A stretch of DNA of 61,315 nucleotides from a virus. This document shows, piece after piece, positions 3,378 through 61,315 of this stretch. Where the stretch lies: IMG/VR virus record IMGVR_UViG_3300020020_000031, positions 1 through 61,315 of that record. One strand, given 5' to 3'. The first letter of the stretch is position 1. Every line of letters starts with the position of its first letter. A model generated the notes under the pieces. It was not told the origin of the DNA, searched no databases, and saw only the letters and a program-made list of their open reading frames with translations. Both the position numbers and the translations under genes were made by a program.

Positions 3378-3424
3378 TAGCCCCACCTATCCGGAGCGCG
3401 TACGCTTCACGTTACGAGAGAGGG
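3378..3424 (+). promoter_or_regulatory. Putative promoter and ribosome site for the HhH protein gene
   Basis: TAGCCC (3378-3383), a 17-base spacer and TACGCT (3401-3406) match the -35/-10 pattern seen repeatedly in the right arm (TAGCCA or TTTGCG, 17 bases, TANNNT). A GAGAGAGGGA ribosome site follows immediately before the ATG at 3429. No strong AGCGAG hairpin is present here. Confidence 0.45.
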
Positions 3425-3428
3425 AACG

Positions 3429-7393: not shown

Positions 7394-7395
7394 CT

Positions 7396-8713: not shown

Positions 8714-8714
8714 G

Positions 8715-9702: not shown

Positions 9703-10088
9703 AGTTTGCACGGAAGATAGGTGTTGCCAACGGTACGTGCTCTCGCCGGAATGTAGGCGCGGTCCTGGTGGCTGGAGGCCGAGTCCGGGAAACTGGTTGG
9801 AATGGGATGGAGCGTTCCTTAGACGCGCCAACCTGCATGATCGGCGCTTGCCCCCGTGGAATGCTATCTCTAGAGGAGCAGCCACGCGGTAGCGGATACT
9901 CCAACTGCATATATCTTCACGCAGAGTACAATGCGTTGGAGAACTACCGACTATCGGCCAATATCCGTAACCAGAAGGGTTGGGCTACGGGAATCCGTGT
10001 ATATACATCATCCAATCCTTGCCAAGATTGCTGCAAGTATTCCGAATGGGCAGGATCGATGCTAGTGTGGGATCCGGAGGGGTTATGA
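9675..10088 (+). CDS. Deoxycytidylate (dCMP) deaminase
   Basis: The 137-residue protein contains the zinc-dependent deaminase signature HAEYNALEN (His and catalytic Glu) and PCQDCC (the two further zinc Cys). It converts dCMP to dUMP, feeding ThyX encoded at 16506. The GTG start has a strong GGAGGAG site eight bases upstream and overlaps the UDG gene by 28 bases. Cys residues between the motifs could bind a structural zinc, as in other phage dCMP deaminases. Confidence 0.85.
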   Translation: MDDSDALYLEFARKIGVANGTCSRRNVGAVLVAGGRVRETGWNGMERSLDAPTCMIGACPRGMLSLEEQPRGSGYSNCIYLHAEYNALENYRLSANIRNQKGWATGIRVYTSSNPCQDCCKYSEWAGSMLVWDPEGL

Positions 10089-10432
10089 AGGTCTATATCG
10101 CCGGTCCCATTACCGGATACGAGGATGGCAACCGTGCAGCCTTTCGTAAGGCGGAGGCTGAGCTGATCCTGAAGGGTCACGTTCCCGTAAACCCTCACAC
10201 CGTCAAGCCTCAGCACGACGACGATTGCTATGCCAGGAAGATTGGCAGGCACTCCGCTTTGGTGGATGGGCACCACAGCGAGCATTCTTATGCCTGCCAT
10301 CTCCGGGCGGACATCATCGCTCTCCTCGACTGCGAGGCGATTACGATGTTGCCGGAGTGGACGATCTCTCGTGGCGCTACTGCCGAGTTTGCCGTAGCTA
10401 ATGCTATGGGGATGGAGGTGATTGACCTATGA
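10085..10432 (+). CDS. DUF4406/nucleoside 2-deoxyribosyltransferase-like protein
   Basis: The 115-residue protein starts KVYIAGPITG, the nucleotide-binding opening of the nucleoside 2-deoxyribosyltransferase/DUF4406 family, and ends with the matching RGATAEFAVANAMG element. A His-rich insertion lies in between (DGHHSEHSYACH). Family members bind deoxynucleosides and may salvage or sense them. It overlaps the deaminase by four bases (ATGA), which supports joint expression. Confidence 0.75.
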   Translation: MKVYIAGPITGYEDGNRAAFRKAEAELILKGHVPVNPHTVKPQHDDDCYARKIGRHSALVDGHHSEHSYACHLRADIIALLDCEAITMLPEWTISRGATAEFAVANAMGMEVIDL

Positions 10433-10608
10433 AGATCATACGGCACAACAGGAACCTTTTGGTCGAGCCGGGATTCCATTGGCTCCATTCCGGCAATGGA
10501 GGCTCTGCGGTCCTCAAGACCGACGTCTCCTGGCGCAACATATCCGGAATCATCATCGCCACGGAGTCTTCGGTGATGTTCGTCTACTTCAGACGGTCCC
10601 CAAGGTGA
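10429..10608 (+). CDS. Small protein overlapping the polymerase start
   Basis: This 59-residue reading frame begins at ATGA overlapping the previous stop and ends four bases into the polymerase GTG (GTGA at 10605). Such tight coupling at both ends argues that it is real. It looks beta-rich (repeated short hydrophobic runs such as ISGIIIAT and VMFVYF) and basic; no family was recognised. Confidence 0.6.
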   Translation: MKIIRHNRNLLVEPGFHWLHSGNGGSAVLKTDVSWRNISGIIIATESSVMFVYFRRSPR

Positions 10609-11513
10609 GAACGCCTAGCCTACATCACCATTCAACGTTCAGCTATATGGACGGCTTCGGGACTCCGGCCCAACACGTGGAACGCGCGGTGGAGTTGGAA
10701 ATGTGGGCTCTAGCTTTCACGGAGCACGGCAATGTTAGTTCCCACGTAGGGCTGGAGAAAGCTGCATTAGCGGCGGGGATCAAACCGATCTTTGGCCTTG
10801 AGGCGTATACCCACCCGGACCCGGATTCGCAATTAAAGTTCCACCTAACCCTCTTGGCGATGGACCAGACCGGCTACTCCAACCTCAACCGCGTGGTCAC
10901 GCGCTCCTGGGCGGAAGGCTTCTACTATTACCCGACCGTATCCGGGCAAATGCTAGCCGACCATCATGAGGGTTTGATCGTCCTCTCAGGATGCTCGGAC
11001 TCGCTGCTGGCCTGTAGTCTCCTTGGCGGGAAGGACATCCCTGCTAGCTTCGCCGGATTTCATAGGGCCAAGCGGTTGGCCGCTAACTTTCGCGCTCTGT
11101 TCGGGGATCGGTATTATTTGGAAGTGCAAGCATTCCCGATGTTTGATCGCGCAAAGCAGATTGCGCAAGCGTATTGGAGAATAGCCGAGCAACTCCATAT
11201 TCATATAGTGGTGACATTCGACGTCCATACGCTCCGGCCCGGTCAAGGCGAGATGCGGGCGCTCCTCCACGCGGCCGGACGTGGGACCAATACTATCGCC
11301 AAGCAACTCTCCTCCTGGGAGTATGATGTGCCGGACTCTCCGCCCCTCAGCGACGCCTACGCCATGAAGATGTTGCGGGAGTTGGGTTTCAGCAAGATGA
11401 AGGCAAGCTACATCATGGCACAGACCGCCATCGTAGCGGAGCGTTGCAATGTTACGCTCCCCAAGGCAAACAGATTCCGTTACAAGGGAACAGAGGCCAG
11501 CCTGACATGGTAA
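10605..11513 (+). CDS. dnaE: DNA polymerase III alpha subunit, PHP-domain fragment (split gene, part 1)
   Basis: The 302-residue protein is the N-terminal PHP domain of a DnaE-type polymerase. Metal ligands typical of active PHP domains are retained: LHHHST, FTEHGN, FGLEAY, FHLTLLA, LSGC and TFDVH. It ends with ERCNVTLPKANRFRYK, which in complete DnaE proteins directly precedes the palm. The coding frame then stops, and the polymerase core resumes 430 bases later in another frame. Active PHP domains can supply 3'-5' proofreading, so this may be a separate subunit that associates with the core. GTG 10605 overlaps the upstream stop. Confidence 0.85.
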   Translation: MRTPSLHHHSTFSYMDGFGTPAQHVERAVELEMWALAFTEHGNVSSHVGLEKAALAAGIKPIFGLEAYTHPDPDSQLKFHLTLLAMDQTGYSNLNRVVTRSWAEGFYYYPTVSGQMLADHHEGLIVLSGCSDSLLACSLLGGKDIPASFAGFHRAKRLAANFRALFGDRYYLEVQAFPMFDRAKQIAQAYWRIAEQLHIHIVVTFDVHTLRPGQGEMRALLHAAGRGTNTIAKQLSSWEYDVPDSPPLSDAYAMKMLRELGFSKMKASYIMAQTAIVAERCNVTLPKANRFRYKGTEASLTW

Positions 11514-12043: not shown

Positions 12044-14259
12044 AGATCCTGTGGGCCTGGCTCCGAGAGGGATGGCGGTACCGCCTCCGGCAGGGGAACA
12101 CCCGCCTCAAGACCCACCAGCCGGAGTACCTGGAGCAATTGCAACAAGAGACCGAGCTAGTTATATCCAAGGACTTCGCCAGCTACTTCTTGCTGGTGTC
12201 GGATATTGTCCGCTGGGCAAAGGACCACGGGATTGCGGTCGGTCCCGGTCGCGGTAGCTCTGCGGCTAGCCTTGACTGTTATCTACTTCGCATTACCGAG
12301 CCAGATCCTCTAATGTTCCCATTGACAGACTTCACCCGCTTCATAGACCCCACCCGCGTGGATCTCCCGGACATAGACGTTGACTTTGATGACGTGCGCC
12401 GCCATGAGGTCCGGGAGTACGCGGTATCGCGGTGGGGCGAGGAGAGCGTTGCCAACATCGGAACCTTTACCAAATACAAAGGCAGGAACTCCATCACGGA
12501 CGTTGGGCGAGTATACGCGATCCCGCCCGGGCCGTTGGCAGTGGTCAAGGGAATGATCATCGAGCGCTCGGGCGGAGACTCTCGTGCGGACGCTAGTCTT
12601 GAGGACACCTTTGCTAGCTTCCCTCCGGCGGCGGAAGTCCTGGCGCTATACCCCAAGCTACAGATGGCGGTTGAGCTTGAGGGTAACTACCGGGGTATGA
12701 GTACCCATGCGGCCGGCTTGGTGATCTCCGATACGCCTATTGCTGACGTATGTGCGATGTACTCTCGTCTGGTTCATGGCCGACCAATTGCGGCCGTAGC
12801 AGTCGACAAGAAAGATGCTGAGTACCTGGGATTGATGAAGATTGATGTCCTGGGACTGACCACCATGGGCGAGATCGCAGAGATGTTGCAGCTGACCGGG
12901 ATGACGCTGGAGGAGTTGTACGCGCTCCCGTTTGACGATGAGCTTACGTTTGCCGCGTTCCAACGGGCGGACGTCATAGGCATATTCCAGTTCGAGGGGC
13001 GCGCTACCCGCCTGGTTTGCCGGGAGGTCAAGCCGGAGGACATCTATGAACTCATTCACGTCAACGCGCTCTCTCGCCCAGGTCCGTTGTTCTCCGGAAC
13101 GACTACCGAGTTCATTAACATCAAGCGCGGACTTATGGAGATCCCTCTGATCCATCCCATCCTGGATCGGATAGCGGCTCCCACGCGCGGACAGATCATC
13201 TATCAAGAGCAAGTGCTGCATTCCTTGGCGGAGTTTGGTGGATTGCCGGTCCAGCGGGTCCATGATATCCGGAAGATCATCAGCCAGAAACTGGGAGAGG
13301 CGCAGTTCAATGCCTCCTCGGAAAACTTCATAACTGGTGCAATGGAACGGAACAACGTCTCGCGCGAGGTAGCCTTCAAGGTTTGGGAGCGTGTTGTGAC
13401 CTCCGCCTCCTATGCGTTCGTCTATAGCCACTCGCTCTCGTACAGCATCATCGGGTATTGGTGTCAATGGTTCAAGCAGCATTACCCTACGGAGTTCTAC
13501 CAAGTCAAACTGGGGCGGACCTCGGACAATCAGCGACCCATACTAGTGAGGGATGCAGAACGGCACGGAGTCCGGGTCAAAGGGGTGACGCTAGGCAAGA
13601 GCGCTATTGGTTGGACGTCTCCGCGGAACGGCGAGCTAGTGGCGGGTTATGAGACCCTACCCGGAGTAGGGCCGGTCGTGGCCGCCAAGATATCCAAGAC
13701 GGAGGCGGAGCGCGGCGGATTCACTCAGGTGGAGGAGTTGTTGACGGTCCCTGGTATTGGACCCAAGACCTTGGAGAAGATGCGGCCACTTGTGAACGTG
13801 GAGGACCCATTCGGACTCCGACGCCTTGAGGAGGATATGGGCCGCGTACGCAAATGGATCCCTACGGCCGGACTGCCTACCCCGACGCATGTCTCTGATG
13901 AGCTACTGGACGTTAGTGAAATGGAGACGGTATTTCTGGGATTTGTGTTGGAGCGGAACTACCAAGACTATGTGGAGAACAAGAGAGCGCGCTACGGGAC
14001 GGAGGTCGCCGACATCATCAAGGAGATGCGGCGCCCGGACCTCAAGACGAGCGTGGTCCTACGCTGCGTAGACGATGGAGATGAAGATGTGTACGTACGG
14101 ATCAACCGCTACGATTTCCCAAATCTCAAGAGCCGTATAGACGGCATAGTGGTGGGTCGGGACATGGTCCTCGTCCGAGGTCGCAAGAGCGATAAGGTGG
14201 CAGCATTCGGAATCTCTGTGCAGACGAAGTGGCTGGTTCCCATTGATCCCAACGATTAA
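11944..14259 (+). CDS. dnaE: DNA polymerase III alpha subunit, catalytic core (split gene, part 2)
   Basis: The product contains the DnaE palm, thumb, fingers and C-terminal domains. Key sites are PGRGSSA (about 101-107), catalytic PDIDVDF (142-148), the third catalytic Asp in MKIDVLGL (about 297), a fingers segment, and a helix-hairpin-helix (VPGIGPKTLEKM) before an OB-like end. Homology to full DnaE starts near residue 29 (FLDPVEIL). ATG 11944, with GGAGG 12 bases upstream, is the only ordinary start in this frame before that point; it overlaps the methyltransferase by 100 bases. A -1 frameshift from the methyltransferase frame would also reach this frame, but no clear slippery site is seen. 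Confidence 0.85.
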   Translation: MGTTATRLLHHGNSRAQPGAILSADQEAFLDPVEILWAWLREGWRYRLRQGNTRLKTHQPEYLEQLQQETELVISKDFASYFLLVSDIVRWAKDHGIAVGPGRGSSAASLDCYLLRITEPDPLMFPLTDFTRFIDPTRVDLPDIDVDFDDVRRHEVREYAVSRWGEESVANIGTFTKYKGRNSITDVGRVYAIPPGPLAVVKGMIIERSGGDSRADASLEDTFASFPPAAEVLALYPKLQMAVELEGNYRGMSTHAAGLVISDTPIADVCAMYSRLVHGRPIAAVAVDKKDAEYLGLMKIDVLGLTTMGEIAEMLQLTGMTLEELYALPFDDELTFAAFQRADVIGIFQFEGRATRLVCREVKPEDIYELIHVNALSRPGPLFSGTTTEFINIKRGLMEIPLIHPILDRIAAPTRGQIIYQEQVLHSLAEFGGLPVQRVHDIRKIISQKLGEAQFNASSENFITGAMERNNVSREVAFKVWERVVTSASYAFVYSHSLSYSIIGYWCQWFKQHYPTEFYQVKLGRTSDNQRPILVRDAERHGVRVKGVTLGKSAIGWTSPRNGELVAGYETLPGVGPVVAAKISKTEAERGGFTQVEELLTVPGIGPKTLEKMRPLVNVEDPFGLRRLEEDMGRVRKWIPTAGLPTPTHVSDELLDVSEMETVFLGFVLERNYQDYVENKRARYGTEVADIIKEMRRPDLKTSVVLRCVDDGDEDVYVRINRYDFPNLKSRIDGIVVGRDMVLVRGRKSDKVAAFGISVQTKWLVPIDPND

Positions 14260-15291: not shown

Positions 15292-16402
15292 GAAGACTCC
15301 TGGCCGGGCCAATAACGGCCCGATGCCCATACGCGCCTCGCCCGGCCAGGGCAAGACTCTCGGGAAGACCACAACCCCAACTACAACCATAGCCAATTCG
15401 CCTTCCCGGGACAAGACTCCACGTCAGGCCAGCGAGCATCCGAAGCCCATGGGCGGCTCGCCTGACGTGGACCTATTCGAACCCACTCTAGCCCTGTCCG
15501 CTGATGTTCTGGATGACCTGGAGCAAACCAGGATCGCTAACGAGAATCGGCTCCGCCAGCTTGTTCGATCTGAGGCCGACAGCGACGGAGAGGAGCGCGG
15601 CTTTGGACTGGATGACACCAATCCTGTCGTGGCCGCACTCCAGAAGATGATTGCTGGACTCTTCGAGATTGAGGGGAAAGCTGTACTCAATCTTGAGAAG
15701 GTGATGAAAGCGCACCCTCTCGGGGAGTGGCAGAGAGCGCAGCACGGAATTGGCGCTAAACAATGCGCACGCCTTATAGCCGCTATCGGGGACCCATACA
15801 TCAGACCGGCATACGCGATCGAGAACGAAGACGGGACTGTTACGGAGGTCCCAGCCGCTCCGCGTACCGTGTCGCAACTTTGGGCCTATTCCGGCTATCA
15901 CACACTCCCCATCGGCCAGGCGCGAGACGATACCCATATAATAGTCGCCGATGGGGGCAAACTCCCGACCAGCAGCCATCTTACCTTCGAAACCCACAAG
16001 GGCACCGCTGCTGTTCGGGGCAAGTCCGGCAACCGGAGCCAGAGTCCCTCCGATCCCCATCCACCATTCGCTTCGGTTGCCGCAAAACGTAAGAAAGGCG
16101 AACGCGCCAATTGGTCCGCTGACGCCAAGATGCGTGCATTCCTTATTGCAGAGAAAACGGTTCAGCTAGGAAAGGCGGTCGACAGCCCGTACTATGAGGC
16201 GTATGCAAAGCGCAAGGCTAACACAGAAGGTCGGACCCATGTTGCGCCTTGTGTCCGTTGCGGGCCTAGTGGGAAGCCTGCCTTGAAAGGTTCCGTATGG
16301 TCGGACGGTCACCGCCACGCCGACGCGCTCCGTATTGTTGCCAAGGAGATCCTGAAGGGCCTCTGGATAGAGGCGAAGAGGCTTCACGAGGAGGAGAAAT
16401 GA
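15284..16402 (+). CDS. IS110/Transposase_20-related protein with a replaced N-terminus
   Basis: The 372-residue protein has a Pro/Ser/Thr-rich, probably disordered N-terminus (residues 1-60), a coiled-coil-like helix, then a segment that matches the C-terminal half of IS110-type transposases: GIGAKQCARLIAAIGD (about 155-170), RTVSQLWAYSGY (194-205) and KGERANWSADAKMRAFLIAE (about 275-295). The DEDD RuvC-like nuclease domain that IS110 enzymes carry in front is missing. A Cys pair (CVRCG) and His-rich end follow. No flanking insertion-sequence ends are seen, so this is probably a domesticated phage protein that binds branched DNA rather than a mobile element. Confidence 0.6.
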   Translation: MPKKTPGRANNGPMPIRASPGQGKTLGKTTTPTTTIANSPSRDKTPRQASEHPKPMGGSPDVDLFEPTLALSADVLDDLEQTRIANENRLRQLVRSEADSDGEERGFGLDDTNPVVAALQKMIAGLFEIEGKAVLNLEKVMKAHPLGEWQRAQHGIGAKQCARLIAAIGDPYIRPAYAIENEDGTVTEVPAAPRTVSQLWAYSGYHTLPIGQARDDTHIIVADGGKLPTSSHLTFETHKGTAAVRGKSGNRSQSPSDPHPPFASVAAKRKKGERANWSADAKMRAFLIAEKTVQLGKAVDSPYYEAYAKRKANTEGRTHVAPCVRCGPSGKPALKGSVWSDGHRHADALRIVAKEILKGLWIEAKRLHEEEK

Positions 16403-16509: not shown

Positions 16510-17678
16510 ACGAACCGGCTTGGTTGACCGAGCACCGCGAATCTAAGTCCCTGTTGCAACTCCTGGCACCTCTATTCTCCGGCCACGAGGGGTTGGCGGA
16601 TCAGGAGTTAGACAATCTTGTCCATGTGGCGGAGACTGCGTTCAACAACCACTCCAAGAACACCGGGGAGCACGTCTCGCCATTCGATACCGGCATCGTT
16701 CGGGTAGGAACGGATGGTCTGGAGGTCCGGTTGCTCCAGGGCATTAACTTCGCCGGCCTCAAGCAGGTTATAGCAAAGGGAGTTCGCGCCACAATTGGGA
16801 ACCCTCGTCCGCAACGCTGGACTCCGCCAAGCCTTATGTCAGATCACCAGACGGTCTCCGACGAAGAGTGGCAGGAGATGTTCCGGGGTGGACTCCAAGC
16901 CGCGCTGGAGTCCCAGACGATTGTCTTTGAGGTCTGGGGCGCGTCCCGTGTCCTGACGCACCAGTTGGTTCGCAGTCGCCGCGCGGGATTCCACCAGCAG
17001 AGCCAGCGATCTACCTGGTACGGCGACCAACCTGAGGTACGGATGCCGGAGACCGTATGGCGCGCTGGCCATGTGGTTCGGGAGAGGTGGAGACAAAGCT
17101 ACTTTGCTGCGTGGGATGCGTACAGGAAAGCTTGCGACGCAGGAGTGCCGTACGAGGATGCGCGGTACATCCTCCCGGAAGGAACCGTCAACTACATCCA
17201 GTGCGAGTACACCATTCGGGAGTTCATGGCGGTCTACGCCTACCGGGGGTGCTCAATGTTCCTCCGGGAAATGGTTGAGTGTATGCGGTTGATGCGCGCC
17301 GCGCTCCTGGAGCAGGCTCCCTGGATGGAGCCGTTCGTGAAGGTCTCCTGCGAGACCGGACCCGGTTGCCCAGAGTGCGGCGGTCGTGGTTCATACTTTA
17401 CCGAATGGAGCGATGCAGCCTCGGCTAATCCCGAACTCGATCGAATGGTCCGTTATTACCCGGACCCACCGGATGGTACGGTCGAAATCGAATGCCAGAC
17501 CTGCCACGGAACAGGCGGTCGCAAGTGCACCTTCCAGGGCTGGGAGAATGTCGAGCTCGCGTGCGACAAGCCAATGGCCAAAGAAAACAACCGGGTATTT
17601 GTTGCTTCCCCCCGGCTTCGCATCGGAGCTAAAGAACGGCCCGCCACCGACAAAGAAGTAAAGGACTGGCTGTCATGA
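16506..17678 (+). CDS. thyX: Flavin-dependent thymidylate synthase, extended form
   Basis: The 390-residue protein has the ThyX core; its signature is RSRRAGFHQQSQR where the family motif is RHRxxSxNxxSxR, so the His is replaced by Ser. VWGASRVLTHQLV precedes it, and the REMVECMRLM helix follows. It would methylate dUMP to dTMP using folate and FAD. Beyond the usual core of roughly 220-250 residues it carries a C-terminal extension with two CxxC-type knuckles (CPECGGRG and CQTCHGTGG), resembling a DnaJ-type zinc module. Pathway partner: dCMP deaminase at 9675. The start ATG overlaps the previous stop. Confidence 0.85.
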   Translation: MNEPAWLTEHRESKSLLQLLAPLFSGHEGLADQELDNLVHVAETAFNNHSKNTGEHVSPFDTGIVRVGTDGLEVRLLQGINFAGLKQVIAKGVRATIGNPRPQRWTPPSLMSDHQTVSDEEWQEMFRGGLQAALESQTIVFEVWGASRVLTHQLVRSRRAGFHQQSQRSTWYGDQPEVRMPETVWRAGHVVRERWRQSYFAAWDAYRKACDAGVPYEDARYILPEGTVNYIQCEYTIREFMAVYAYRGCSMFLREMVECMRLMRAALLEQAPWMEPFVKVSCETGPGCPECGGRGSYFTEWSDAASANPELDRMVRYYPDPPDGTVEIECQTCHGTGGRKCTFQGWENVELACDKPMAKENNRVFVASPRLRIGAKERPATDKEVKDWLS

Positions 17679-18388
17679 CCGTACATATCCGCGCGCTTGG
17701 TCCGGACGGGACCCAAATTGGAGAATGGCGGACCCACGAGAACGGAGAGCATGAAGTGATGCAACGGGACGAGGACGGGACCGAGCACGGCATTCATGGC
17801 GTCAGGGGATTTTCGATATCCGGCCGGAACGGAGCGGACGAGATCACTCCCAAGGACGTTGGTTCCAACGCCTCCGAGCTAGTAGCGGAGGAGATGGAGG
17901 ATGCGGACTCCGAGCCGTACGCCATCGATGACGAAATGCTTAAGGAGGATGACGCCAGGGCTCGCGCCTATATGGCGGTGTGGGACCACTATGAGTGTGC
18001 TTATAACGCTACCCGCCACCGGGTCTCCATCGACAACTACTTCCACCAGTTGGTCGATCTTCTGTCCGCTATCATGGGCCGGACGATCACCCTGGGCGGG
18101 GATGACGACCCGCCGTTCTCCACGGCGCTCTGGGACGCGGGGCAGGAGCGATCGCGCCTCCTGAGTCAAATTGAGCGGGTCCAGGAAACGCTCGGGGTCC
18201 AAGCGAACTCCGTAGCCAGCCAGCAGCGCCTGATTCAAGAGTTCGTGGGCCATGCGACGCGCGGAAAGGCGGCTACGGAATTGCTTCGTGGCTTAGCCAT
18301 TTGGGTCGGTGCGAAGGCAAACGGCTCGCCGGAGGAGTTAGCGGCCTCCATCAAAAGCGCTCTGAGCCGTACGCCATCCGATGGTTAG
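17675..18388 (+). CDS. Hypothetical protein with acidic N-terminus
   Basis: The 237-residue protein has a beta-rich N-terminal part (residues 1-50), an acidic stretch (about 60-90) and a helical C-terminal half with coiled-coil character (QERSRLLSQIERVQETLGV). It contains TRHRVSIDNYFHQLVDLLSA, suggestive of a helical bundle. No family was recognised. It overlaps thyX by four bases. Confidence 0.6.
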   Translation: MTVHIRALGPDGTQIGEWRTHENGEHEVMQRDEDGTEHGIHGVRGFSISGRNGADEITPKDVGSNASELVAEEMEDADSEPYAIDDEMLKEDDARARAYMAVWDHYECAYNATRHRVSIDNYFHQLVDLLSAIMGRTITLGGDDDPPFSTALWDAGQERSRLLSQIERVQETLGVQANSVASQQRLIQEFVGHATRGKAATELLRGLAIWVGAKANGSPEELAASIKSALSRTPSDG

Positions 18389-26088: not shown

Positions 26089-26627
26089 TGATTGATCCGT
26101 TAGTGGCGGCGCTTAAGCAGCGCCGCGAGGAATTGGGTTGGGACCCCATTAAGCTAACTCGTGAGTTCAATTGGTCGTCTGCGGCTCTCATCCGCTTTGA
26201 GGCGGGCGGAGACCCAAGGCTGAGTACGGTGAGAAAGGTGGCTGAAGCACTAGGGTGTGACCTGAATCTGGTCCCGAAGAATGGCAACCCGATTCTGTCG
26301 CCGAGCTACTTGGACCTGATCGATCGGCTGGAGAAGCACTTCACCGAGCAGGGAGGCGTAACGCTGCCGCTCCAGCTAATCAAGATTCAGGAGGAGTTGG
26401 GTGAAGCTGCAGAGGCTTACGTCGGCATGACCGGATCTAACCCGCGTAAGGGCGTCACCCATACGGCTGCTGACGTTGCTATGGAGTTGGCCGATGTGGC
26501 GCTCACGGCGATATTGGCGATTAGATACGCGGGGCACGAAGTAGAGGCCGTGCTTATTGCGCAGGCGGTTAAGACCGAGCAGCGGCTTGACGAGTACGAC
26601 CAGATCCCGCTGAGAGGGATATCATGA
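26088..26627 (+). CDS. XRE-type HTH fused to a MazG-like domain
   Basis: Residues 1-62 form an XRE/Cro-type helix-turn-helix (LKQRREELGWDPIKL, then SAALIRFEAGGDPRLSTVRKVAEALG). Residues 75-179 match an all-alpha NTP pyrophosphatase: IKIQEELGEAAEAYVG (EExxE metal site) and DVAMELADVALTAILAI. The fusion couples a DNA-binding module to a nucleotide-hydrolysing domain. It may act as a nucleotide-sensing regulator or simply be an enzyme with a protein-interaction domain. It is the only HTH regulator recognised in the window. Confidence 0.75.
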   Translation: MIDPLVAALKQRREELGWDPIKLTREFNWSSAALIRFEAGGDPRLSTVRKVAEALGCDLNLVPKNGNPILSPSYLDLIDRLEKHFTEQGGVTLPLQLIKIQEELGEAAEAYVGMTGSNPRKGVTHTAADVAMELADVALTAILAIRYAGHEVEAVLIAQAVKTEQRLDEYDQIPLRGIS

Positions 26628-26959
26628 GCTTAGTTGAACATGCCATTCGTGAGCTGGAGCTCAGCGGCCAGACCGCTGAAGATCCAGCTTACTCCGCTGC
26701 TCTTGTCGCCTCAATTGCGGCCTTTGCCTCGTATGGGCACAGCGGCGGATCGGCCGGAGTTGCTATCCGGCAACTGATGCTGCTTTTGCAGCATCGCGCG
26801 CTTTCGCCGCTGACCTCGGACCCCGAAGAATGGATCGATCAAAGCGGTCCGTCGGGATACCCGCTGTGGCAGAACAAGCGCGACTCGGCGGCGATGAGTA
26901 AGGACGGAGGCAAGACCTGGTATTACGTGGATGAACGTCGTCCGGTTTCATCGTGCTGA
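26624..26959 (+). CDS. Conserved phage hypothetical protein
   Basis: The 111-residue protein contains FASYGHSGGSAGVAIRQL and LWQNKRDSAAMSKDGGKTW, signatures of a small protein widespread in actinophages (from memory). It may be a factor related to DNA metabolism; its role is not established. It is coupled to the XRE-MazG gene by a four-base overlap. Confidence 0.65.
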   Translation: MSLVEHAIRELELSGQTAEDPAYSAALVASIAAFASYGHSGGSAGVAIRQLMLLLQHRALSPLTSDPEEWIDQSGPSGYPLWQNKRDSAAMSKDGGKTWYYVDERRPVSSC

Positions 26960-54529: not shown

Positions 54530-54630
54530 CGCCAGATTTCCCCCGCGAGGTACCGTTCCTATTTGATAGGTCTCGGCGAGGTCGAACGGTGGAGTTTGGG
54601 TTCCCTCTCCTCCCCGTTCCCCCGAGCCTC

Positions 54631-54685
54631 GGTGGTCCTCTCCTGTGGCCTCGCAACCCAGCCAGGAGGGGACCACCGCTTTACT
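54631..54685 (+). terminator. Terminator closing the late operon
   Basis: A 15-bp stem with one G-T pair (54631-54645 with 54663-54677) and a 17-base loop is followed by GCTTTACTT. It ends the late transcript. Its T-rich trail overlaps the -35 element of the next promoter. Confidence 0.8.
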
Positions 54686-54750
54686 TACGCGCTCCAGTGG
54701 AGTAGCGTTCGTGCTGTGGGGCGAGCGAGCGCCCCGGACGAGAGGGATCC
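54680..54750 (+). promoter_or_regulatory. Promoter and AGCGAG hairpin leader 1
   Basis: TTTACT (54680-54685), 17 bases, TAGCGT (54703-54708), then nine bases to a hairpin GGGGCG-AGCGAG-CGCCCC (54718-54735), then GAGAGGGA (54740-54747) and GTG at 54753. Transcription would begin at or just before the hairpin. Confidence 0.65.
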
Positions 54751-54752
54751 CA

Positions 54753-55796
54753 GTGACGACCACGATTGACCTCAACAAGATGATGGCTAAGATCCAGGCA
54801 CTCCTAGCCAAGGCGGACGGCACCGAGTTCCCGGAGGAGGCTACTACCTACCGGGCCAAGGCCGAGCAGTTCATGCGGGACTACCGGATCGAGGAAGAGC
54901 ACCTGATCGCCTCCGACCAGGTAGAGATAGCGCCGGAGGTCCACGAGCTCTGGTTGGGCCCGCTGAAGGACGCTACCCGCGCCACCACCCGTGAGAATTC
55001 AGGCAACAGTTACTACCAGGAGTGGTACGCGCTAGCGTCCGGCGCCGCAAGGCACTCTGGGGTCATGATCCACTACCGTTGGAAGCGCAATCCCGACACC
55101 GGCGAGTACGGGATCTGGGCGGTCATGGTTGGCTACTCCGGCGACCTTCGGCTAGCGGAGTTGGTCTATACCAACGCCCGTATCGTCTTCGGAGAGCGGC
55201 TGGAGCCAAAGGTGGATCCTAGCCTCAGCGACCGCGAGAACGTGTATCGGCTACGGAGCGCTGGAATCACGCGCGACCGGGTAGCGGAGATGCTTTGGGG
55301 AGCGGCGCCCGGTACGCGCGCGGCTCAGGTAGGCGCGTGGTACAAGGAGGAGTGCGCCAAGCGCGGGGAGACTCCAGCGCTGGATGGTCGCGGGATCTCT
55401 GCTGCGCTCTACCGGGACGAGTTCGCGCGGTCGTTCGTGGATGAGCTAGACCGACGCCTCCGCGCGGCGCGCGATGCGGCGGATTCCGTTGGCGGCGCGC
55501 TAGTCCTCCACGGACGCGCGGAGCGGATTCAGGAAGCGTTCTGGACCGAGTTCCCGAGCCTCCGCCCGCAAGCCGCTACGGACTTGGCGGAGCGCGAGAC
55601 CTCCCCGGCTAAGCGCGGACGCGCCCCCAAGCCGTACTGGGAAACGGCAGCCTATCGCAAGGAGCAAGAGCGCCGTTACTCCGACGTAGGCCAAGCCGCG
55701 CGGAGCGCCGGTCGCGCTGCGGCTGCAGACGTTCCTCTAGACCGGACCTCCCCGGCCAAGCGGGTTAGTCGCCCCGTCGCGGGAGAGATCGGGTAG
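54753..55796 (+). CDS. DUF2786-family protein
   Basis: The 347-residue protein has the DUF2786 module at its N-terminus (KIQALLAKADGTEFPEEATTY, AEQFMRDYRI, about residues 8-48), a following mixed alpha/beta domain (ALASGAARHSGVMIHY, WAVMVGYSGDLRLAELVY), and a basic, Arg/Ala-rich tail. DUF2786 occurs widely in actinobacteria and their phages without a proven role. GTG 54753 follows leader 1. Confidence 0.75.
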   Translation: MTTTIDLNKMMAKIQALLAKADGTEFPEEATTYRAKAEQFMRDYRIEEEHLIASDQVEIAPEVHELWLGPLKDATRATTRENSGNSYYQEWYALASGAARHSGVMIHYRWKRNPDTGEYGIWAVMVGYSGDLRLAELVYTNARIVFGERLEPKVDPSLSDRENVYRLRSAGITRDRVAEMLWGAAPGTRAAQVGAWYKEECAKRGETPALDGRGISAALYRDEFARSFVDELDRRLRAARDAADSVGGALVLHGRAERIQEAFWTEFPSLRPQAATDLAERETSPAKRGRAPKPYWETAAYRKEQERRYSDVGQAARSAGRAAAADVPLDRTSPAKRVSRPVAGEIG

Positions 55797-55847
55797 AGCG
55801 CGCGGCTCGCGGACGCCAAAGGGCTTCGCGAGTCGTTGTGGGGAAAA

Positions 55848-55885
55848 GGAGGGGCGAGCCTAACCGGGCTCGCTCCTCCGATTTT
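55848..55885 (+). terminator. Intrinsic terminator
   Basis: A 13-bp stem with one G-T pair (55848-55860 with 55867-55879) and the loop TAACCG is followed by GATTTT. It ends the DUF2786 transcript; the trailing T tract overlaps the next -35 element. Confidence 0.85.
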
Positions 55886-55955
55886 GCGTACGCGGATTTT
55901 TGGCGTACGCTACGGGTAGAGCGCCGGAGCGAGCCGACGCCAAGAGAGAGGGAAC
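55883..55955 (+). promoter_or_regulatory. Promoter and AGCGAG hairpin leader 2
   Basis: TTTGCG (55883-55888), 17 bases, TACGCT (55906-55911), nine bases, then a hairpin with loop AGCGAG (stem 55921-55927 with 55934-55940, one mismatch), then GAGAGAGGGA (55944-55953) and ATG at 55959. GATTTT(T)GCGTACGC is nearly repeated within the promoter. Confidence 0.7.
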
Positions 55956-55958
55956 GCC

Positions 55959-56369
55959 ATGAGAACCATGAGTTGGGATTGGAAAGAGCAGCCGGACTTC
56001 GACGAGCTATCTCGCCTCGTGACGGAGGTAGCCGGCAAGCCGATCAAGATCCGCAAGATCGAGACGGGAACGGATCTCTACGTCATCGCGATCTCCTCCG
56101 GGAGTGCGGCGCTGGAGCTCGGTGACGTCGTAGCCGTCCTTACCCACAACGGCGAGGTCGGCTACTTCGGAGAGGTCACGAGCCTCCCCGTACCCGGTAG
56201 TGACGCCGCTCTATTTGACCGGGGCAAGGTCGGCGTGTGGAACCCTGAGACCGATGAAGTTCACTACGTCGCGTCGGCCGACGGCGAGGGTATCCGGGAG
56301 GCTACGGAGGCAGAGAGCGACGCCTATATTGAGCGTTGGCTTGACTCTGACCCGGAGCCACGGCCGTAG
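55959..56369 (+). CDS. Hypothetical protein under leader 2
   Basis: The 136-residue acidic protein has a beta-rich middle (IKIRKIETGTDLYVIAISS, GDVVAVLTHNGEVGYFGEV) suggesting a small barrel. No family was recognised. It is a single-gene transcript bounded by its own leader and by the strong terminator downstream. Confidence 0.6.
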   Translation: MRTMSWDWKEQPDFDELSRLVTEVAGKPIKIRKIETGTDLYVIAISSGSAALELGDVVAVLTHNGEVGYFGEVTSLPVPGSDAALFDRGKVGVWNPETDEVHYVASADGEGIREATEAESDAYIERWLDSDPEPRP

Positions 56370-56386
56370 GGTAAAGGATCTAGCGA

Positions 56387-56412
56387 GGGGCGCCCGCGGG
56401 CGCCCCTTTTTT
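56387..56412 (+). terminator. Strong intrinsic terminator
   Basis: GGGGCGCCC/GGGCGCCCC (56387-56395, 56398-56406) is followed by six T residues. It is the clearest Rho-independent terminator in the window. Confidence 0.95.
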
Positions 56413-56586
56413 GCATCCGGTTACTCTACGTAGAATCTGTGCCGTGCAGGCCTCTAGGAGCCACGTACGTGGTTTGCGGTTTCGGACGTATCCGGTTATG
56501 CAGACCTCCTCGAGTTTGACCATGAGCTGAAAAAGTCGTTGCTACGCAAGCGAAGGATCTAGTGCAAAAGAATCTTGGCCGCCACC
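56413..56586. other. Non-coding region with palindrome and short repeats
   Basis: No gene is seen. It holds a perfect 12-base palindrome CCACGTACGTGG (56461-56472), the smaller CTACGTAG upstream, and ATCCGGTTA at two places (56414 and 56490). A TTTGCG at 56473-56478 with TTATGC 17 bases on resembles a weak promoter. An operator or protein-binding site is possible. Confidence 0.4.
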
Positions 56587-56657
56587 TTTGCGGGAGCCAC
56601 GGCATGGCGTACGCTTAGCCCGTATGGCGGGAGCGAGCCCGCCGAGAGAGAGGGAAT
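56587..56657 (+). promoter_or_regulatory. Promoter and AGCGAG hairpin leader 3
   Basis: TTTGCG (56587-56592), 17 bases, TACGCT (56610-56615), ten bases, then hairpin GGCGGG-AGCGAG-CCCGCC (56626-56643), GAGAGAGAGGGA (56644-56655) and GTG at 56661. The -35 and -10 hexamers are identical to those of leader 2. Confidence 0.75.
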
Positions 56658-56660
56658 CCC

Positions 56661-56933
56661 GTGAATCTGAACGAGCTCATCGAGCGCCACGACGAGAAGT
56701 GCGAGCTCAACCGGGTGGACTGGCCGCAGTTCAAGGAGTGGACCGACCCAATCACCGGGAAGACTCACCCAGCCGGACCGTACCCGTGCCACTGCTTCGG
56801 CCGAGCGACCGGAATCCGCAAGGCCGAACGCGAGAATGCTCGCGTGGAGCGTGCTGCGAACGCTTGCCTGGAATGTTACGTAACGTTCCGGACTCCAGAG
56901 AACCTCATGCGCCACCTGCGCGTAGCCCATTAG
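56661..56933 (+). CDS. Small protein with a C2H2-type zinc finger
   Basis: The 90-residue protein ends with CLECYVTFRTPENLMRHL and a final RVAH, a C-x2-C-x12-H-x4-H arrangement like a eukaryotic-type zinc finger. Two further Cys/His residues occur in PYPCHCFG. It may bind DNA or a protein. Promoter leader 3 drives it. Function is unknown. Confidence 0.65.
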   Translation: MNLNELIERHDEKCELNRVDWPQFKEWTDPITGKTHPAGPYPCHCFGRATGIRKAERENARVERAANACLECYVTFRTPENLMRHLRVAH

Positions 56934-57003
56934 CCATCCCATCCAGCAGCGAGTACCGTAACGACCAGAGGGGCGAGCGAGCGCTCCCGCGAGAGAGGGA
57001 ATT
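56931..57003 (+). promoter_or_regulatory. Promoter and AGCGAG hairpin leader 4
   Basis: TAGCCA (56931-56936), 17 bases, TACCGT (56954-56959), ten bases, then hairpin GGGGCG-AGCGAG-CGCTCC (56970-56987, one G-T pair), GAGAGAGGGA (56991-57000) and ATG at 57007. The -35 overlaps the stop codon of the upstream gene. Confidence 0.7.
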
Positions 57004-57006
57004 GAT

Positions 57007-57453
57007 ATGTACGGATCAGTCGTGAATCGGATCGTGGAGTCTGGCCGCTACCCCGAGATCGTTGTGGGCATGGGCGCTACCATCACCTACTGGAGCGACC
57101 GCTCCTCCGCTACCGTGGTAGCGGTCCGGTACGCCAAGGACGGCAAGAGCGTCAGGGAGATCGACACACGGGGCGACCACGTTGGCCCCAACAAGGTAAC
57201 CTGGCCGGGTCAGGACTACGACATTACTCCGGCTAGTACGGAGGTCTGCGATGACCGGTACATCCTTGATGATTGCGGCCACTCCGCCGATCACGCGAGC
57301 CACATCCCGGTACAGACCTGGCGGATGGACCAGCGCGGGAGACTCCGCAAGACCTTCATCAGCGAGAACGGGCGCCGCGTAATGTGCGCTCCGAACAACG
57401 GTCCCGAGATCGTCCTGGGTAGCCGTGACTACTATCAAGACCCGTCATTCTAA
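57007..57453 (+). CDS. Hypothetical protein under leader 4
   Basis: The 148-residue protein is strand-rich (GATITYWSDRSSATVVAVRYA) with a C-terminal repeat-like end (KTFISENGRRVMCAPNNGPEIVLG). It recalls small actinophage proteins of unknown role. No motif was recognised. Confidence 0.65.
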   Translation: MYGSVVNRIVESGRYPEIVVGMGATITYWSDRSSATVVAVRYAKDGKSVREIDTRGDHVGPNKVTWPGQDYDITPASTEVCDDRYILDDCGHSADHASHIPVQTWRMDQRGRLRKTFISENGRRVMCAPNNGPEIVLGSRDYYQDPSF

Positions 57454-57470
57454 AGAGAGAGGTAACTCCA

Positions 57471-57707
57471 ATGCAATGCTCGCGCTGCTCGGGGACCGGA
57501 CAAGAGCCGGGTGGCCCTACATCAGAACGTATCACCGAGACATTCCGTGGCGTTAACTGCAAGCGCCACGCCTACGCCTACCGGGACCAAATGAAAGCCG
57601 AAGGCTGGCGCGAGGCTTCATTCTCCGGAGTTAGCGGCGTGGGCGGGTACAAGTCCTGCTCTATCACGTTGGTCCGGTCTACCGTGGCGAGTACGCCAAC
57701 CGGGTGA
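57471..57707 (+). CDS. Small Cys-pair protein
   Basis: The 78-residue protein starts with CSRCSGTG, a zinc-knuckle element, followed by a short alpha/beta part. It has an AGAGAGGTAA site but no AGCGAG hairpin, and may be co-transcribed with the preceding gene. Function is unknown. Confidence 0.6.
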   Translation: MQCSRCSGTGQEPGGPTSERITETFRGVNCKRHAYAYRDQMKAEGWREASFSGVSGVGGYKSCSITLVRSTVASTPTG

Positions 57708-57720
57708 TATCCCGGAACCC

Positions 57721-57786
57721 AAGCCATTAACGTTGCAACCCCAGTAGGATCAAGACAGAAGCGCCGACGGCGCCAAGAGAGGGAAC
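57721..57786 (+). promoter_or_regulatory. Promoter and hairpin leader 5 (variant loop)
   Basis: AAGCCA (57721-57726), 18 bases, TAGGAT (57745-57750), ten bases, then hairpin GCGCC-GAC-GGCGC (57761-57773), GAGAGGGA (57777-57784) and ATG at 57791. The geometry matches the other leaders, but the loop is GAC in place of AGCGAG. Confidence 0.55.
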
Positions 57787-57790
57787 CAAA

Positions 57791-58687
57791 ATGACTACCA
57801 CAGCGAGCAAGGCTGGCCTCCGGGCCAAGGCTGAGGCTACCCGGACCAAAGCGGCCCAGCGGACTCCGCTGCCTCCGAAGCCGGGAACACCGGAGCACCG
57901 GGACGAGCAAATTGCAGCCGGGCAGGAGCGCAAGCGCGTACGGCGCGCGGCCGAGGACGCCAAGACCGCCAACGAGCCCGCCCGTCGAGCGACGCGGGAC
58001 GCCAAGAAAGACGCAGCGACGGAGGCGCGGCGCGCCAAGGCGACCAAGCCTGCCAAAGCGCCCAAGCCGGATAAGGCGACCATCTACGCGGGAGAGATGA
58101 CCAAGCTAGGATGGCACCCCGAGGTCACCCGGCTGGACGGACTCCACGAGCTCATTGCTACGCGCGGGAATGAAGCGCTCTACCTGGCCTGGATGAACGA
58201 GGCCCACGTTCCCGGTACCTCTACCTACACCATTGCGGACCGTACCGTTAAGGTCCGCAATCCCGCTGAGGCTATGCGGGTCGCGGCTCTTAAGCCGACC
58301 GAGGCGAAAGCCGTTCAGGAGAAAGTCTCCAGCAACGTGTCGTTCCGTAAGCGCCCCACCGGGCCAACGATCCGGCGCATTCCCTTTGACGTAGAGACGG
58401 CCACGGAGGAGGAGTTGCGCGCCGCGCTGGAGGCTCACGAAATCCGCTGGCACAACCAGTACCGGGTGAACTCCGAAGAAGCCATCGTGGGAAGCGCCAA
58501 GAGCATCCACGTTTCGCGCCACAAGGCGGGTCACCGGATCGTGTCGTTCGTAGACCCTCAGTTCGGGTACCGCGCGCTCCGGCTGGAGCACCTGGAGAAT
58601 GTTGGCGCCAAGGTTAACCTGGCACATATCCGCCAGGAAATCCTGAAGTCACTCTCTCGCCCGGAGCGTAAGGCTAAGGCGGCGTGA
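57791..58687 (+). CDS. Basic protein with Lys/Ala-rich N-terminus
   Basis: The 298-residue protein has a highly charged Lys/Ala/Arg-rich first third (about residues 1-95), probably disordered and nucleic-acid binding. The remainder is a folded domain (IYAGEMTKLGWHPEV, YLAWMNEAHVPGTSTYTI, VRNPAEAMRVAAL). It may be a DNA-binding or nucleoid-associated protein; no family was recognised. Confidence 0.6.
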   Translation: MTTTASKAGLRAKAEATRTKAAQRTPLPPKPGTPEHRDEQIAAGQERKRVRRAAEDAKTANEPARRATRDAKKDAATEARRAKATKPAKAPKPDKATIYAGEMTKLGWHPEVTRLDGLHELIATRGNEALYLAWMNEAHVPGTSTYTIADRTVKVRNPAEAMRVAALKPTEAKAVQEKVSSNVSFRKRPTGPTIRRIPFDVETATEEELRAALEAHEIRWHNQYRVNSEEAIVGSAKSIHVSRHKAGHRIVSFVDPQFGYRALRLEHLENVGAKVNLAHIRQEILKSLSRPERKAKAA

Positions 58688-58698
58688 GATCCGCAAAC

Positions 58699-58725
58699 GG
58701 GGCGCTCCAACCGGGGCGCCCCTTT
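58699..58725 (+). terminator. Intrinsic terminator
   Basis: GGGGCGC/GCGCCCC (58699-58705, 58716-58722) with a 10-base loop is followed by TTT. It separates the basic-protein gene from the next one. Confidence 0.75.
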
Positions 58726-58745
58726 CGGCCGGGGAGGGAACCAAA

Positions 58746-59378
58746 ATGAGCATGGGTAGGGAAATGGTTAAGCGGCCGCCAAAGTGGCCATTAGATACTC
58801 TGGAGGCGTGCATCCGGGACTTCTTGTGGCGCCGCGCTCCGGGCGGAGGTCTTGACGTCTTGGCGGATGACATTCCCGGAATGTGCTTGGCTGCTACCAA
58901 TTTCTATGAAGCTGTTTGGCTCGCTTGCGCATCTAAGCGTATAAATGGAAAGATGCATCCCCACCAGACCAAGGTTAAGGCGGACGCGCGGCGCGAGTTT
59001 GGCTACCGGATCATAGAGCGCGGAAACCATATTCAGATTCTGGCTTTCGCCGGGACCCTAACCTTCGATCAGTTCCATGATGACCTCTGGGAGATTCGGC
59101 CGGAGGGGATCGGTCCGCTGACGGTCTATGACGTTGCAACGCGCGTGGGCGCGTACTTCCGTATAGAGCCAAAAGACATCTTCCTGCATACCGGTGCAAG
59201 GTTAGGATGGAACGCGCTTACGGGCGGAATGGCACGTGCTTACGGGGTGACTGCTCGCGTTCCCCCGGAGCGCTGGCCCGCGCCACTCCGCCAGCTAAGC
59301 GCGGACATGGCAGAAGACTTCTTGTGCGCCTACCGGGTACAGCTGGCCGGCCTAGCCATCCCGAACGCAGTGGAGTAG
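58746..59378 (+). CDS. Hypothetical protein, possible DNA-binding helical fold
   Basis: The 210-residue protein includes GIGPLTVYDVATRVGAYF, which looks like a helix-hairpin-helix-type segment, followed by FLHTGARLGWNAL. The pattern recalls a class of bacterial and phage proteins of unknown function, some with DNA glycosylase-like HhH pieces. The catalytic site is not evident. A GGGAACC site precedes ATG 58746. Confidence 0.6.
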   Translation: MSMGREMVKRPPKWPLDTLEACIRDFLWRRAPGGGLDVLADDIPGMCLAATNFYEAVWLACASKRINGKMHPHQTKVKADARREFGYRIIERGNHIQILAFAGTLTFDQFHDDLWEIRPEGIGPLTVYDVATRVGAYFRIEPKDIFLHTGARLGWNALTGGMARAYGVTARVPPERWPAPLRQLSADMAEDFLCAYRVQLAGLAIPNAVE

Positions 59379-59424
59379 AGTCAGGGTTGTGGGGCGAGCG
59401 AGCGCTCCGGAGGAGAGAGGGACC
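59353..59424 (+). promoter_or_regulatory. Promoter and AGCGAG hairpin leader 6
   Basis: TAGCCA (59353-59358), 17 bases, TAGAGT (59376-59381), nine bases, then hairpin GGGGCG-AGCGAG-CGCTCC (59391-59408, one G-T pair), GAGAGAGGGA (59413-59422) and ATG at 59428. The -10 box includes the TAG stop of the upstream gene. Confidence 0.7.
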
Positions 59425-59427
59425 GAG

Positions 59428-60273
59428 ATGATTAAGTGTGGACACTGCCGGAGTAGCCACGGAACTGTGGCTAAGGTCCGCGAGTGCGCAACCAACGTAG
59501 CTACGACCGATACGGCTGGCCAGGCGCGGGAGCGCCGGGAGAGGCTGGAGGAGCTAGCACGCTCCGACGCACGAGCGGAGTTCAACGCAGAGGACGAGCG
59601 CGCGATGCATCGGATGGAAGCGGAGGGTGACCGCGCGGAGTCGCGCCGGGACTCAGCCGCTAAGGCGGCCAAGTGGGATGCGGAGATGCGCGCCTGGACG
59701 TTGACGGACGACCCGGCCGAGCTCCGCACGTTGGTTGCGCGGGTAGACCGGCTGTTGGTGACTCAGCAGATCCCGGAGGAGTACCACCGCTGGAGCCGCG
59801 CGATTCGCGCGTTGATCTCTGGCCAAGGGAACGTCAGGATCACCGAGTACGCTATGCGGTCCGCCAAGGAGCGGCTGGAAGCGTTCCCGGTAATGCTGGA
59901 GATTGATCCCGCTTATCCGTCTGGACGGGTGGAGAAGCCATGGTCCAATTCCCCCAAGGTTACGGCCGAGGGACTCTACCGGCTGGACGGGAACCTCTAT
60001 CAGGTGACGCGCTCCAAGGACTCCGACCGGCTATACGCCAAGCTGGTAACATTCCCGGAGGGCAAGAAGCGGCCCATCCTGACCTATGCCAAAGGTGCGA
60101 TCTTCCGCCTTCGTCCGGAGCACCTAGTCCCAATGGCGGAGGCCAATGAGCTAACCCAGAAGACCGGCTGGTGCGTCTTCGGCCACTTCTTGACCAATCC
60201 CGTTTCCATCGCGCGCGGTATGGGCCCGGTATGCTGGGAGCGCTACGGCGGATCGCACGAGAGCGTGGCCTAG
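59428..60273 (+). CDS. DUF6011-type protein with N-terminal Cys motif
   Basis: The 281-residue protein starts with KCGHCRSSHGTVAKVREC, a zinc-binding-type opening. It then has a long charged coiled-coil section, a beta-rich middle (LYRLDGNLYQVTRSKDSDRLY) and the DUF6011-like end WCVFGHFLTNPVSIARGMGP with a final Cys. The two Cys-containing ends may assemble zinc sites. DUF6011 proteins are common in actinophages; their role is unknown. Confidence 0.7.
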   Translation: MIKCGHCRSSHGTVAKVRECATNVATTDTAGQARERRERLEELARSDARAEFNAEDERAMHRMEAEGDRAESRRDSAAKAAKWDAEMRAWTLTDDPAELRTLVARVDRLLVTQQIPEEYHRWSRAIRALISGQGNVRITEYAMRSAKERLEAFPVMLEIDPAYPSGRVEKPWSNSPKVTAEGLYRLDGNLYQVTRSKDSDRLYAKLVTFPEGKKRPILTYAKGAIFRLRPEHLVPMAEANELTQKTGWCVFGHFLTNPVSIARGMGPVCWERYGGSHESVA

Positions 60274-60401: not shown

Positions 60402-61315
60402 GCGTTCGGGCGGAACTAGCCAAAAGCGGGAGGCGCATCTATCTCAGCACCAGCCGCCCGTTGGCGGGTCTGAAGATGGCCATTCCCGGAGCCGCGTTCA
60501 ACCAAGGCCGATATGGCAAGCCCTATTGGAGCCTACCACTCAGCATGCCGGTCTGCCGGCGCTTACGGGAGGAGTTCGGATCCGAATTGGTGATAGGTCC
60601 GGCGCTTTGGGATTGGGCTAAGACGGAACAAGCGAAGGCGGTCGTCATGTCTACCTTGGCGGCCGCGCGTGACGCTAATCTCCAGATAGTTCCTACGGTA
60701 GCGCCCCGGCTAGCTAAGGCGATGGCGTCCCGCACGTATCAGCGGGTAGGCGCGCGGTTCATAGCGGAGGCGCGCGCCAATGGGGCCGGCTGCCTAGTGG
60801 CGGATCAGCCGGGACTAGGCAAGACGCTGGAAGCGCTAGGCGGAGTGGTAGAGAGCCGGATTGCGGGACCGTATCTGGTTGTTACACCCAAGACCGCTAC
60901 CAATACGGTCTGGGGGGCGGAGATCCCACGCTGGCTGGAAGGCCAGATCGTGGTAACGCTCCCGGACGGAGACGTAACCCGCAACAAGATCAGGACTCCT
61001 CAGCGGGCTCGCCGGGACGCCGTACTGGACTCACTCGCTAGCAGCCCTAGATTGGACGCTACGTGGGTGGTGGTGCATCCTGAGGCCGTTCGTGCAAGGG
61101 TGTACTGGGTCTGCGGCGTATGTGGAAGCGAGACGCCTAAGAAGTATGGCCGGGTAGAGCTCAAGTGCGTTCATGACCCGGAACTCCGGAAGAACGACCT
61201 CGTGGTGCATGAGTACCCGCAGATCTTCTCTCGTGAGTGGGGCGCTGTGATCGCGGACGAGTCCGACCGCTCTCTCCTCCGGTTATCCGGCACGCCTACC
61301 CAAACGCGTCAAGGG
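60398..61315 (+). CDS. SNF2-family DNA helicase, N-terminal part (continues at base 1)
   Basis: The frame opens at GTG 60398 with GAGGAGGGACC upstream and runs off the window after 306 codons; the last 46 codons duplicate the start of the window. It contains Walker A QPGLGKT (about residues 136-142), motif Ia VVTPKT, a zinc-type insertion with CGVCG and KCVHD, and motif II IADESD. With 1-1290 it forms a complete SNF2-like ATPase of about 689 residues. Confidence 0.88.
   Translation, partial: MSVRAELAKSGRRIYLSTSRPLAGLKMAIPGAAFNQGRYGKPYWSLPLSMPVCRRLREEFGSELVIGPALWDWAKTEQAKAVVMSTLAAARDANLQIVPTVAPRLAKAMASRTYQRVGARFIAEARANGAGCLVADQPGLGKTLEALGGVVESRIAGPYLVVTPKTATNTVWGAEIPRWLEGQIVVTLPDGDVTRNKIRTPQRARRDAVLDSLASSPRLDATWVVVHPEAVRARVYWVCGVCGSETPKKYGRVELKCVHDPELRKNDLVVHEYPQIFSREWGAVIADESDRSLLRLSGTPTQTRQG
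61178..61315. repeat. Right copy of the 138-bp terminal repeat
   Basis: It repeats bases 1-138 with one change (G at 61189 against T at 12). See the left copy for meaning. Confidence 0.95.

Follow-up and report, generated by a model that had tools for sequence, protein, structure and literature searches.

A promoter-linked RNA hairpin with an AGNGAG loop in right-arm gene leaders of uncultured, probably actinobacterial phages

Right-arm leaders in the window and in related phages

The window analyzed here is the whole of IMG/VR record IMGVR_UViG_3300020020_000031 (61,315 nucleotides [nt]), from an uncultured phage that, like its relatives described below, probably infects actinobacteria. Its right arm (54680-59428) contains six gene leaders, all on the + strand, in which a promoter is followed by a short inverted repeat that is almost certainly an RNA hairpin. 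The layout common to the six comprises a -35 hexamer, a spacer, a -10 hexamer, 8-10 nt, the hairpin, the Shine-Dalgarno (SD) sequence GAGAGGGA and, after a further 5-6 nt, the start codon. An earlier note on this DNA had described six such leaders, and all were found where it placed them, with a spacer of 17 bp in five and of 18 bp in the leader at 57721. Its count of AGCGAG loops (five of the six) also holds; corrected here are a C-A mismatch in the hairpin at 55921-55940, a GAC triloop at 57761-57773, and a rival pairing register at 56976.

Leader 1 (54680-54753) precedes a gene for a DUF2786 protein; it has a -35 TTTACT (54680-54685), a -10 TAGCGT (54703-54708), the hairpin TGGGGCG-AGCGAG-CGCCCCG (54717-54736), GAGAGGGA (54740-54747) and a GTG start at 54753. 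Leaders 2 (55883-55961) and 3 (56587-56663) have the same hexamers, TTTGCG (55883-55888 and 56587-56592) and TACGCT (55906-55911 and 56610-56615). The hairpin of leader 2 (55921-55940) contains the internal C-A mismatch and is followed by GAGAGGGA (55946-55953) and ATG at 55959; that of leader 3 (56625-56644) is TGGCGGG-AGCGAG-CCCGCCG, with GAGAGGGA at 56648-56655 and GTG at 56661. Leader 4 (56931-57009) consists of TAGCCA (56931-56936), TACCGT (56954-56959), GGGGCG-AGCGAG-CGCTCC (56970-56987), GAGAGGGA (56993-57000) and ATG at 57007; a rival pairing register is present at its loop site, 56976. Leader 5 (57721-57793) is divergent: AAGCCA (57721-57726) and TAGGAT (57745-57750) lead to a 5-bp stem with the GAC triloop (GCGCC-GAC-GGCGC, 57761-57773), then GAGAGGGA (57777-57784) and ATG at 57791. 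Leader 6 (59353-59430) has TAGCCA (59353-59358), TAGAGT (59376-59381), TGGGGCG-AGCGAG-CGCTCCG (59390-59409), GAGAGGGA (59415-59422) and ATG at 59428. The triplet directly ahead of the -10 is GAG or GCG in all leaders save leader 5 (CAG-TAGGAT).

The element is also present in six further IMG/VR phages, in agreement with the conservation that the earlier note had expected. Searches with the DUF2786 protein and a loop-plus-SD pattern identified phages A (3300042846_000008, with an identical sequence in 3300028793_000010), B (3300045391_001192) and C (3300035121_000011); D (3300020027_000145) is a more distant DUF2786 relative, and E (3300043621_000039) and F (3300028380_000016) were recovered by a promoter-plus-hairpin pattern. 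Right-arm orthologs in A, B and C have protein identities of roughly 40-78%, and these phages have the AGCGAG loop; the distant D, E and F have AGAGAG, with the layout of the window and GAAGGGACC as SD instead of GAGAGGGA. All seven phages have the leader ahead of the DUF2786 gene, though protein identity drops to 34-43% in D-F; the copy in C is unusual, the nearest -10-like hexamer lying just 9 nt from the loop. Orthologs of leader 4 are found in A, B and C, and the B ortholog of leader 5 has the hairpin GGCGCG-ACGAG-CGCGCC. No relative of the window was found in INPHARED at the DNA level, and a scan of genome contigs with a DUF2786 alignment gave no cellular or prophage relative.

Alignment of 24 copies supports the stem covariation around a conserved loop that had been proposed from the window: 98.3% of stem cells are paired, four of the five stem pairs are changed on both sides, and the covariation score is 0.61, compared with 0.18 for shuffled alignments and no more than 0.12 for slid pairings. 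The closing pair and loop, G-AGNGAG-C, are invariant save for N, which is C in the window, A, B and C (16 copies with the exact six-base loop) and A in D, E and F. AGCGAG loops on at least five contiguous pairs occur four times in the right arm (0.034 expected from 2,000 dinucleotide shuffles), which rules out a chance origin; taken alone, the hexamer AGCGAG occurs in the window as often as expected (46 times in both cases), and GAGAGGGA is enriched (18 seen, 3.3 expected). A covariance model found no convincing copy elsewhere in these genomes, and none of the Rfam 15 families matched 54600-59500, even with E-values up to 1.

The hairpin was also said to be linked to the promoter, and the distances bear this out. 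The -10 ends 15.6±0.66 nt ahead of the loop (20 of 21 copies), and the loop lies 10.4±1.6 nt from the SD and 23.5±2.4 nt from the start codon; because the first distance is the most constant, the position of the hairpin is set by the promoter and not by the ribosome site. If transcription starts about 7 nt past the -10, the first stem base would fall at roughly +2 to +5; given the fixed spacing, the mRNA should have the hairpin at its 5′ end, immediately beyond the ribosome footprint. The proposal of control next to the ribosome site stands in part: the hairpin is near that site, and it ends about 17 nt ahead of the start codon and excludes the SD. The SD is mostly unpaired in leader folds (probability 0.3-1.0; of 29 leaders, only a few fall below about 0.5); its occlusion by the hairpin was rejected on the distances and these folds. 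All right-arm TAGCCA/TTTGCG-N17-G(A/C)GTANNNT promoters in the window, A, B and C bear the hairpin. The window, B and C each have a single such promoter in their replication region, and it lacks the hairpin; the window copy (TAGCCC-N17-TACGCT with GAGAGGGA, 3378-3436, + strand) serves as a negative control.

The right arm sits between the end of the lysis genes and an SNF2-like helicase gene that spans the record ends, and is presumed to be the start of the early region, so its mRNAs are probably early. Strong intrinsic terminators precede leader 2 (55848-55888, its T run overlapping the -35) and leader 3 (56385-56412), both on the + strand, which indicates that right-arm genes form short units. 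The first and last 138 bases of the record (1-138 and 61178-61315) are the same save for a single mismatch, and the helicase gene continues from one end to the other; the genome is therefore probably complete and either circularly permuted or terminally redundant. Ahead of an exonuclease gene (2073-2192, + strand), a tRNA-like sequence (2073-2159) is directly followed by a hairpin (2161-2182) and GAGAGGGA (2185-2192), an arrangement repeated in B and C; it is possible that this is a second route, after processing, to an mRNA with a 5′ hairpin. Phages E and F have a second leader class, in which TCGTAGGAATTG or TCGTATGAATTG precedes GAAGGGACC (E 50552, E 55798, F 33213 and F 38637). The window also encodes, at 26624-26959, a protein that matches Tad3 in Pfam (E-value 6e-29); Tad3 inhibits type I Thoeris defence.

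Leaders of cultivated actinophages

When the consensus leader was searched by blastn at a relaxed E-value, it matched leaders between genes in mycobacteriophages HSavage, Baee and Serendipitous and in Gordonia phage Skog. With 34 nt of Skog as the probe, there were matches in 376 phage records, of which 362 are from Mycobacterium phages. The cluster B mycobacteriophage Oline and Gordonia phages Skog, Evaa and Pupper each gave five to seven leaders per genome section. They consist of TTGACA-N17-TANNNT, usually 9-12 nt, a GC hairpin (GGCGGG or GGCGAG, 5 nt, CCCGCC or CTCGCC, respectively), a purine-rich SD and a start codon; the opposite strand gave none and shuffles gave 0-0.17. The order of promoter, short interval, GC hairpin, SD and start is thus the same as in the window. 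The cultivated leaders differ in their TTGACA -35 and in having a near-fixed stem with a variable 5-nt loop, the reverse of the window group. When the covariance model was run on nine described actinophages, no leader matched the AGNGAG hairpin itself convincingly. Neither the AGNGAG leader nor the cluster B/Gordonia leader was found described in the open-licence literature, an absence that is not proof.

Other leader structures occur in these phages. In mycobacteriophage Damien (7012-11417), many consecutive genes have a tRNA-like minihelix and a 7-bp hairpin, often with the loop CANAAGA, followed by the SD; ARAGORN found no tRNA in these leaders. Streptomyces phage Wentworth has type II hammerhead-like ribozymes in gene leaders right before the SD (10221-10301, 13845-13913 and 15375-15431); they score 22-26 bits with Rfam Hammerhead_II, under the 37-bit threshold, with a visible catalytic core. 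From the hairpin leaders and the tRNA-like elements together, we suggest that regulation in these phages often acts on the mRNA 5′ end. Oline gp69 (17496-18194), annotated as RNase E, was considered as a lead and set aside; Pfam gives weak helix-turn-helix and sigma-70 region 4 matches alone, and the RNase E label is probably a misannotation.

Possible roles of the hairpin

The sequence shows that the stem covaries, that the hairpin keeps its distance from the -10, that the loop does not change apart from N, that seven phages conserve the element and that it is restricted to right-arm leaders. The reading we favor is advanced tentatively, the doubts slightly outweighing the support: the hairpin would be a promoter-encoded, 5′-terminal RNA tag, probably on early mRNAs, that is read through its loop and protects or promotes them. 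Transcripts from a right-arm promoter, starting about 7 nt past the -10, would open with a few unpaired nt, followed by the 5-7 bp GC-rich hairpin capped by AGNGAG and then by the ribosome-binding site. The tagged set would consist of short, mostly monocistronic, probably early mRNAs; the loop would be recognized by a factor (a phage or host protein, or an RNA); and the outcome would be positive, with the 5′ end shielded from 5′-dependent decay, the message preferentially translated, or both. The dependence of RppH and RNase E on single-stranded 5′ ends, which accounts for stabilizing structures there (PMC3997798), speaks for this reading too. Possible, with considerable doubt, is an RNA regulon in which a trans-acting phage or host factor reads AGNGAG at the 5′ end of every right-arm mRNA and labels these as phage messages to be protected or preferentially translated, the loop (AGCGAG or AGAGAG) diverging by lineage together with its reader, and other actinophages using other hairpins, tRNA-like elements or hammerhead-like ribozymes. 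If a factor does read the loop, tagging of its own messages by a phage in this manner would be new, and expression tools for actinobacteria would gain a portable leader.

Several points weigh against a tag read through its loop. We infer the transcription start, any effect on half-life and any partner of the loop from sequence. Folding energies of single leaders are mostly no better than those of shuffles, with mostly weak z-scores, and are unremarkable for GC-rich DNA; because they are uninformative, the hairpin is argued from its recurrence, its placement and the covariation. Some copies in the window, A, B and C have 7-nt loops (AAGCGAG, TAGCGAG and TTGCGAG), or ACGAG or GAC. Since loops in the cultivated phages vary on a near-fixed stem, reading of the loop cannot be a general principle. 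In Mycobacterium smegmatis, a reporter was not stabilized by a pair of hairpins close to the 5′ end of esxB, and across the transcriptome half-life was uncorrelated with structure at the 5′ end (PMC11728522).

The main rival is generic stabilization, in which the hairpin is a purely structural 5′ stabilizer or insulator: any stable hairpin would block nucleases and keep the SD single-stranded, and AGNGAG would be a compact GNRA turn on an A-G pair. We think this rather unlikely. The loop can possibly be read as GNRA (GCGA or GAGA) within an A...G pair, and the C/A change between lineages falls on the N of that motif; Oline, Skog, Pupper and Evaa have the same placement with quite different loops and stems, and the tRNA-like sequence plus hairpin in the window, B, C and Damien also puts a hairpin at a presumed new 5′ end. 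There is precedent in the 5′ stem-loops of Escherichia coli, where 5′ structures stabilize because RppH and RNase E require single-stranded 5′ ends (PMC3997798). The same M. smegmatis data weaken this rival, however, 5′ structure not being generally stabilizing in that species. Nor do nearest-neighbour energies support conservation of the loop for thermodynamic stability alone: AGCGAG ranks 1792 of 4096 hexamer loops, and the same stems would gain stability from a plain tetraloop, GCGA or GAAA (-10.6 versus -9.6 kcal/mol), yet the flanking A and G are invariant. Because the loop is not specially stable, stability by itself leaves its conservation unexplained.

A translational operator, through which a phage RNA-binding protein would repress the gene set much as T4 gp43 acts on its own mRNA, is improbable. 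Several genes do have the conserved loop on a variable stem, and the operators of T4 and RB69 gp43 have loop bases in common, with RB49 differing (PMC3014915); however, the SD is not included in the hairpin, given the distance to the start codon described above, and no candidate binder was seen among the window proteins scanned. A nut/boxB-like or put-like antitermination signal, with RNA polymerase as its target, would account for a promoter-proximal hairpin with a GNRA-like, lineage-specific loop and terminators downstream. It is very unlikely, as a boxA would not fit between the transcript start and a stem that begins 8-10 nt past the -10, and read-through would add little because the promoter of each unit directly follows a terminator. 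Least probable of all is a DNA-level operator, with the inverted repeat just downstream of the start as a repressor or activator site: the fixed promoter distance and the near-constant GGCGGG/CCCGCC arms of the cultivated phages would suit a dimer site, but arms in the window group vary with compensation around a fixed centre, the opposite of a dimeric DNA site.

Any role of the leader design in mRNA decay or translation is directly testable in infected cells, because easily grown mycobacteriophages and Gordonia phages share that design.

Comparison with known systems

The stem-loops of the E. coli ompA and papA mRNAs resemble the predicted arrangement in lying a few nt from the 5′ end, with the SD free, behind an ordinary vegetative-type promoter. 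The window leaders differ in forming one hairpin family with an invariant loop on many phage genes, known from sequence alone, in hosts that are probably actinobacteria, where a stabilizing effect is doubtful. The gp43 operators of T4 and RB69 likewise have conserved loop bases on a phage mRNA hairpin, the stem sequence being free in the window group; they are single autogenous sites that reach the ribosome-binding site, whereas here a multi-gene set has that site outside the hairpin. The 17-bp palindromes of cluster O (PMC4351075) and the 18-bp palindromes of cluster EG are also inverted repeats recurring near gene starts, with invariant arms, a variable or absent centre and no tie to the promoter start, unlike the leaders described here.

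Start-associated sequences (SAS) and extended start-associated sequences (ESAS), described in cluster K mycobacteriophages (PMC3203893) and cluster EF Microbacterium phages (PMC7302621), are repeated elements at and just upstream of the ribosome-binding site of right-arm, non-structural genes. They read GGGATAGGAGCCC and GGGAAAGGACCCC, as against GAGAGGGA here; the 13-bp SAS at the ribosome-binding site is absent from the window-group leaders, where GAGAGGGA (in D-F, GAAGGGACC) occupies its place. ESAS are 17-bp imperfect inverted repeats without RNA covariation, and those of cluster K were judged not to pair as RNA (PMC3203893), whereas the stem described here covaries as RNA. The EF phages contain the nearest known capsid protein (about 42% identity) and a similar promoter, TAGCG(A/G)-N17-GNGTANNNT, followed by SAS; hairpins there are sporadic, with unrelated loops. 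In the EF phage AnnaSerena (5298, 8156, 15638, 16013, 25383, 27131 and 28529), the GTAGAG-centred ESAS resembles the -10 of that promoter.

Among described elements, SAS, ESAS and the cluster O palindromes come closest, and none of them is an RNA hairpin with covariation. These repeats and those of cluster EG have been known at actinophage start sites for over a decade without a function; in the phages analyzed here, one class of repeated start-site elements resolves into what is almost certainly a promoter-encoded RNA hairpin with clear covariation.

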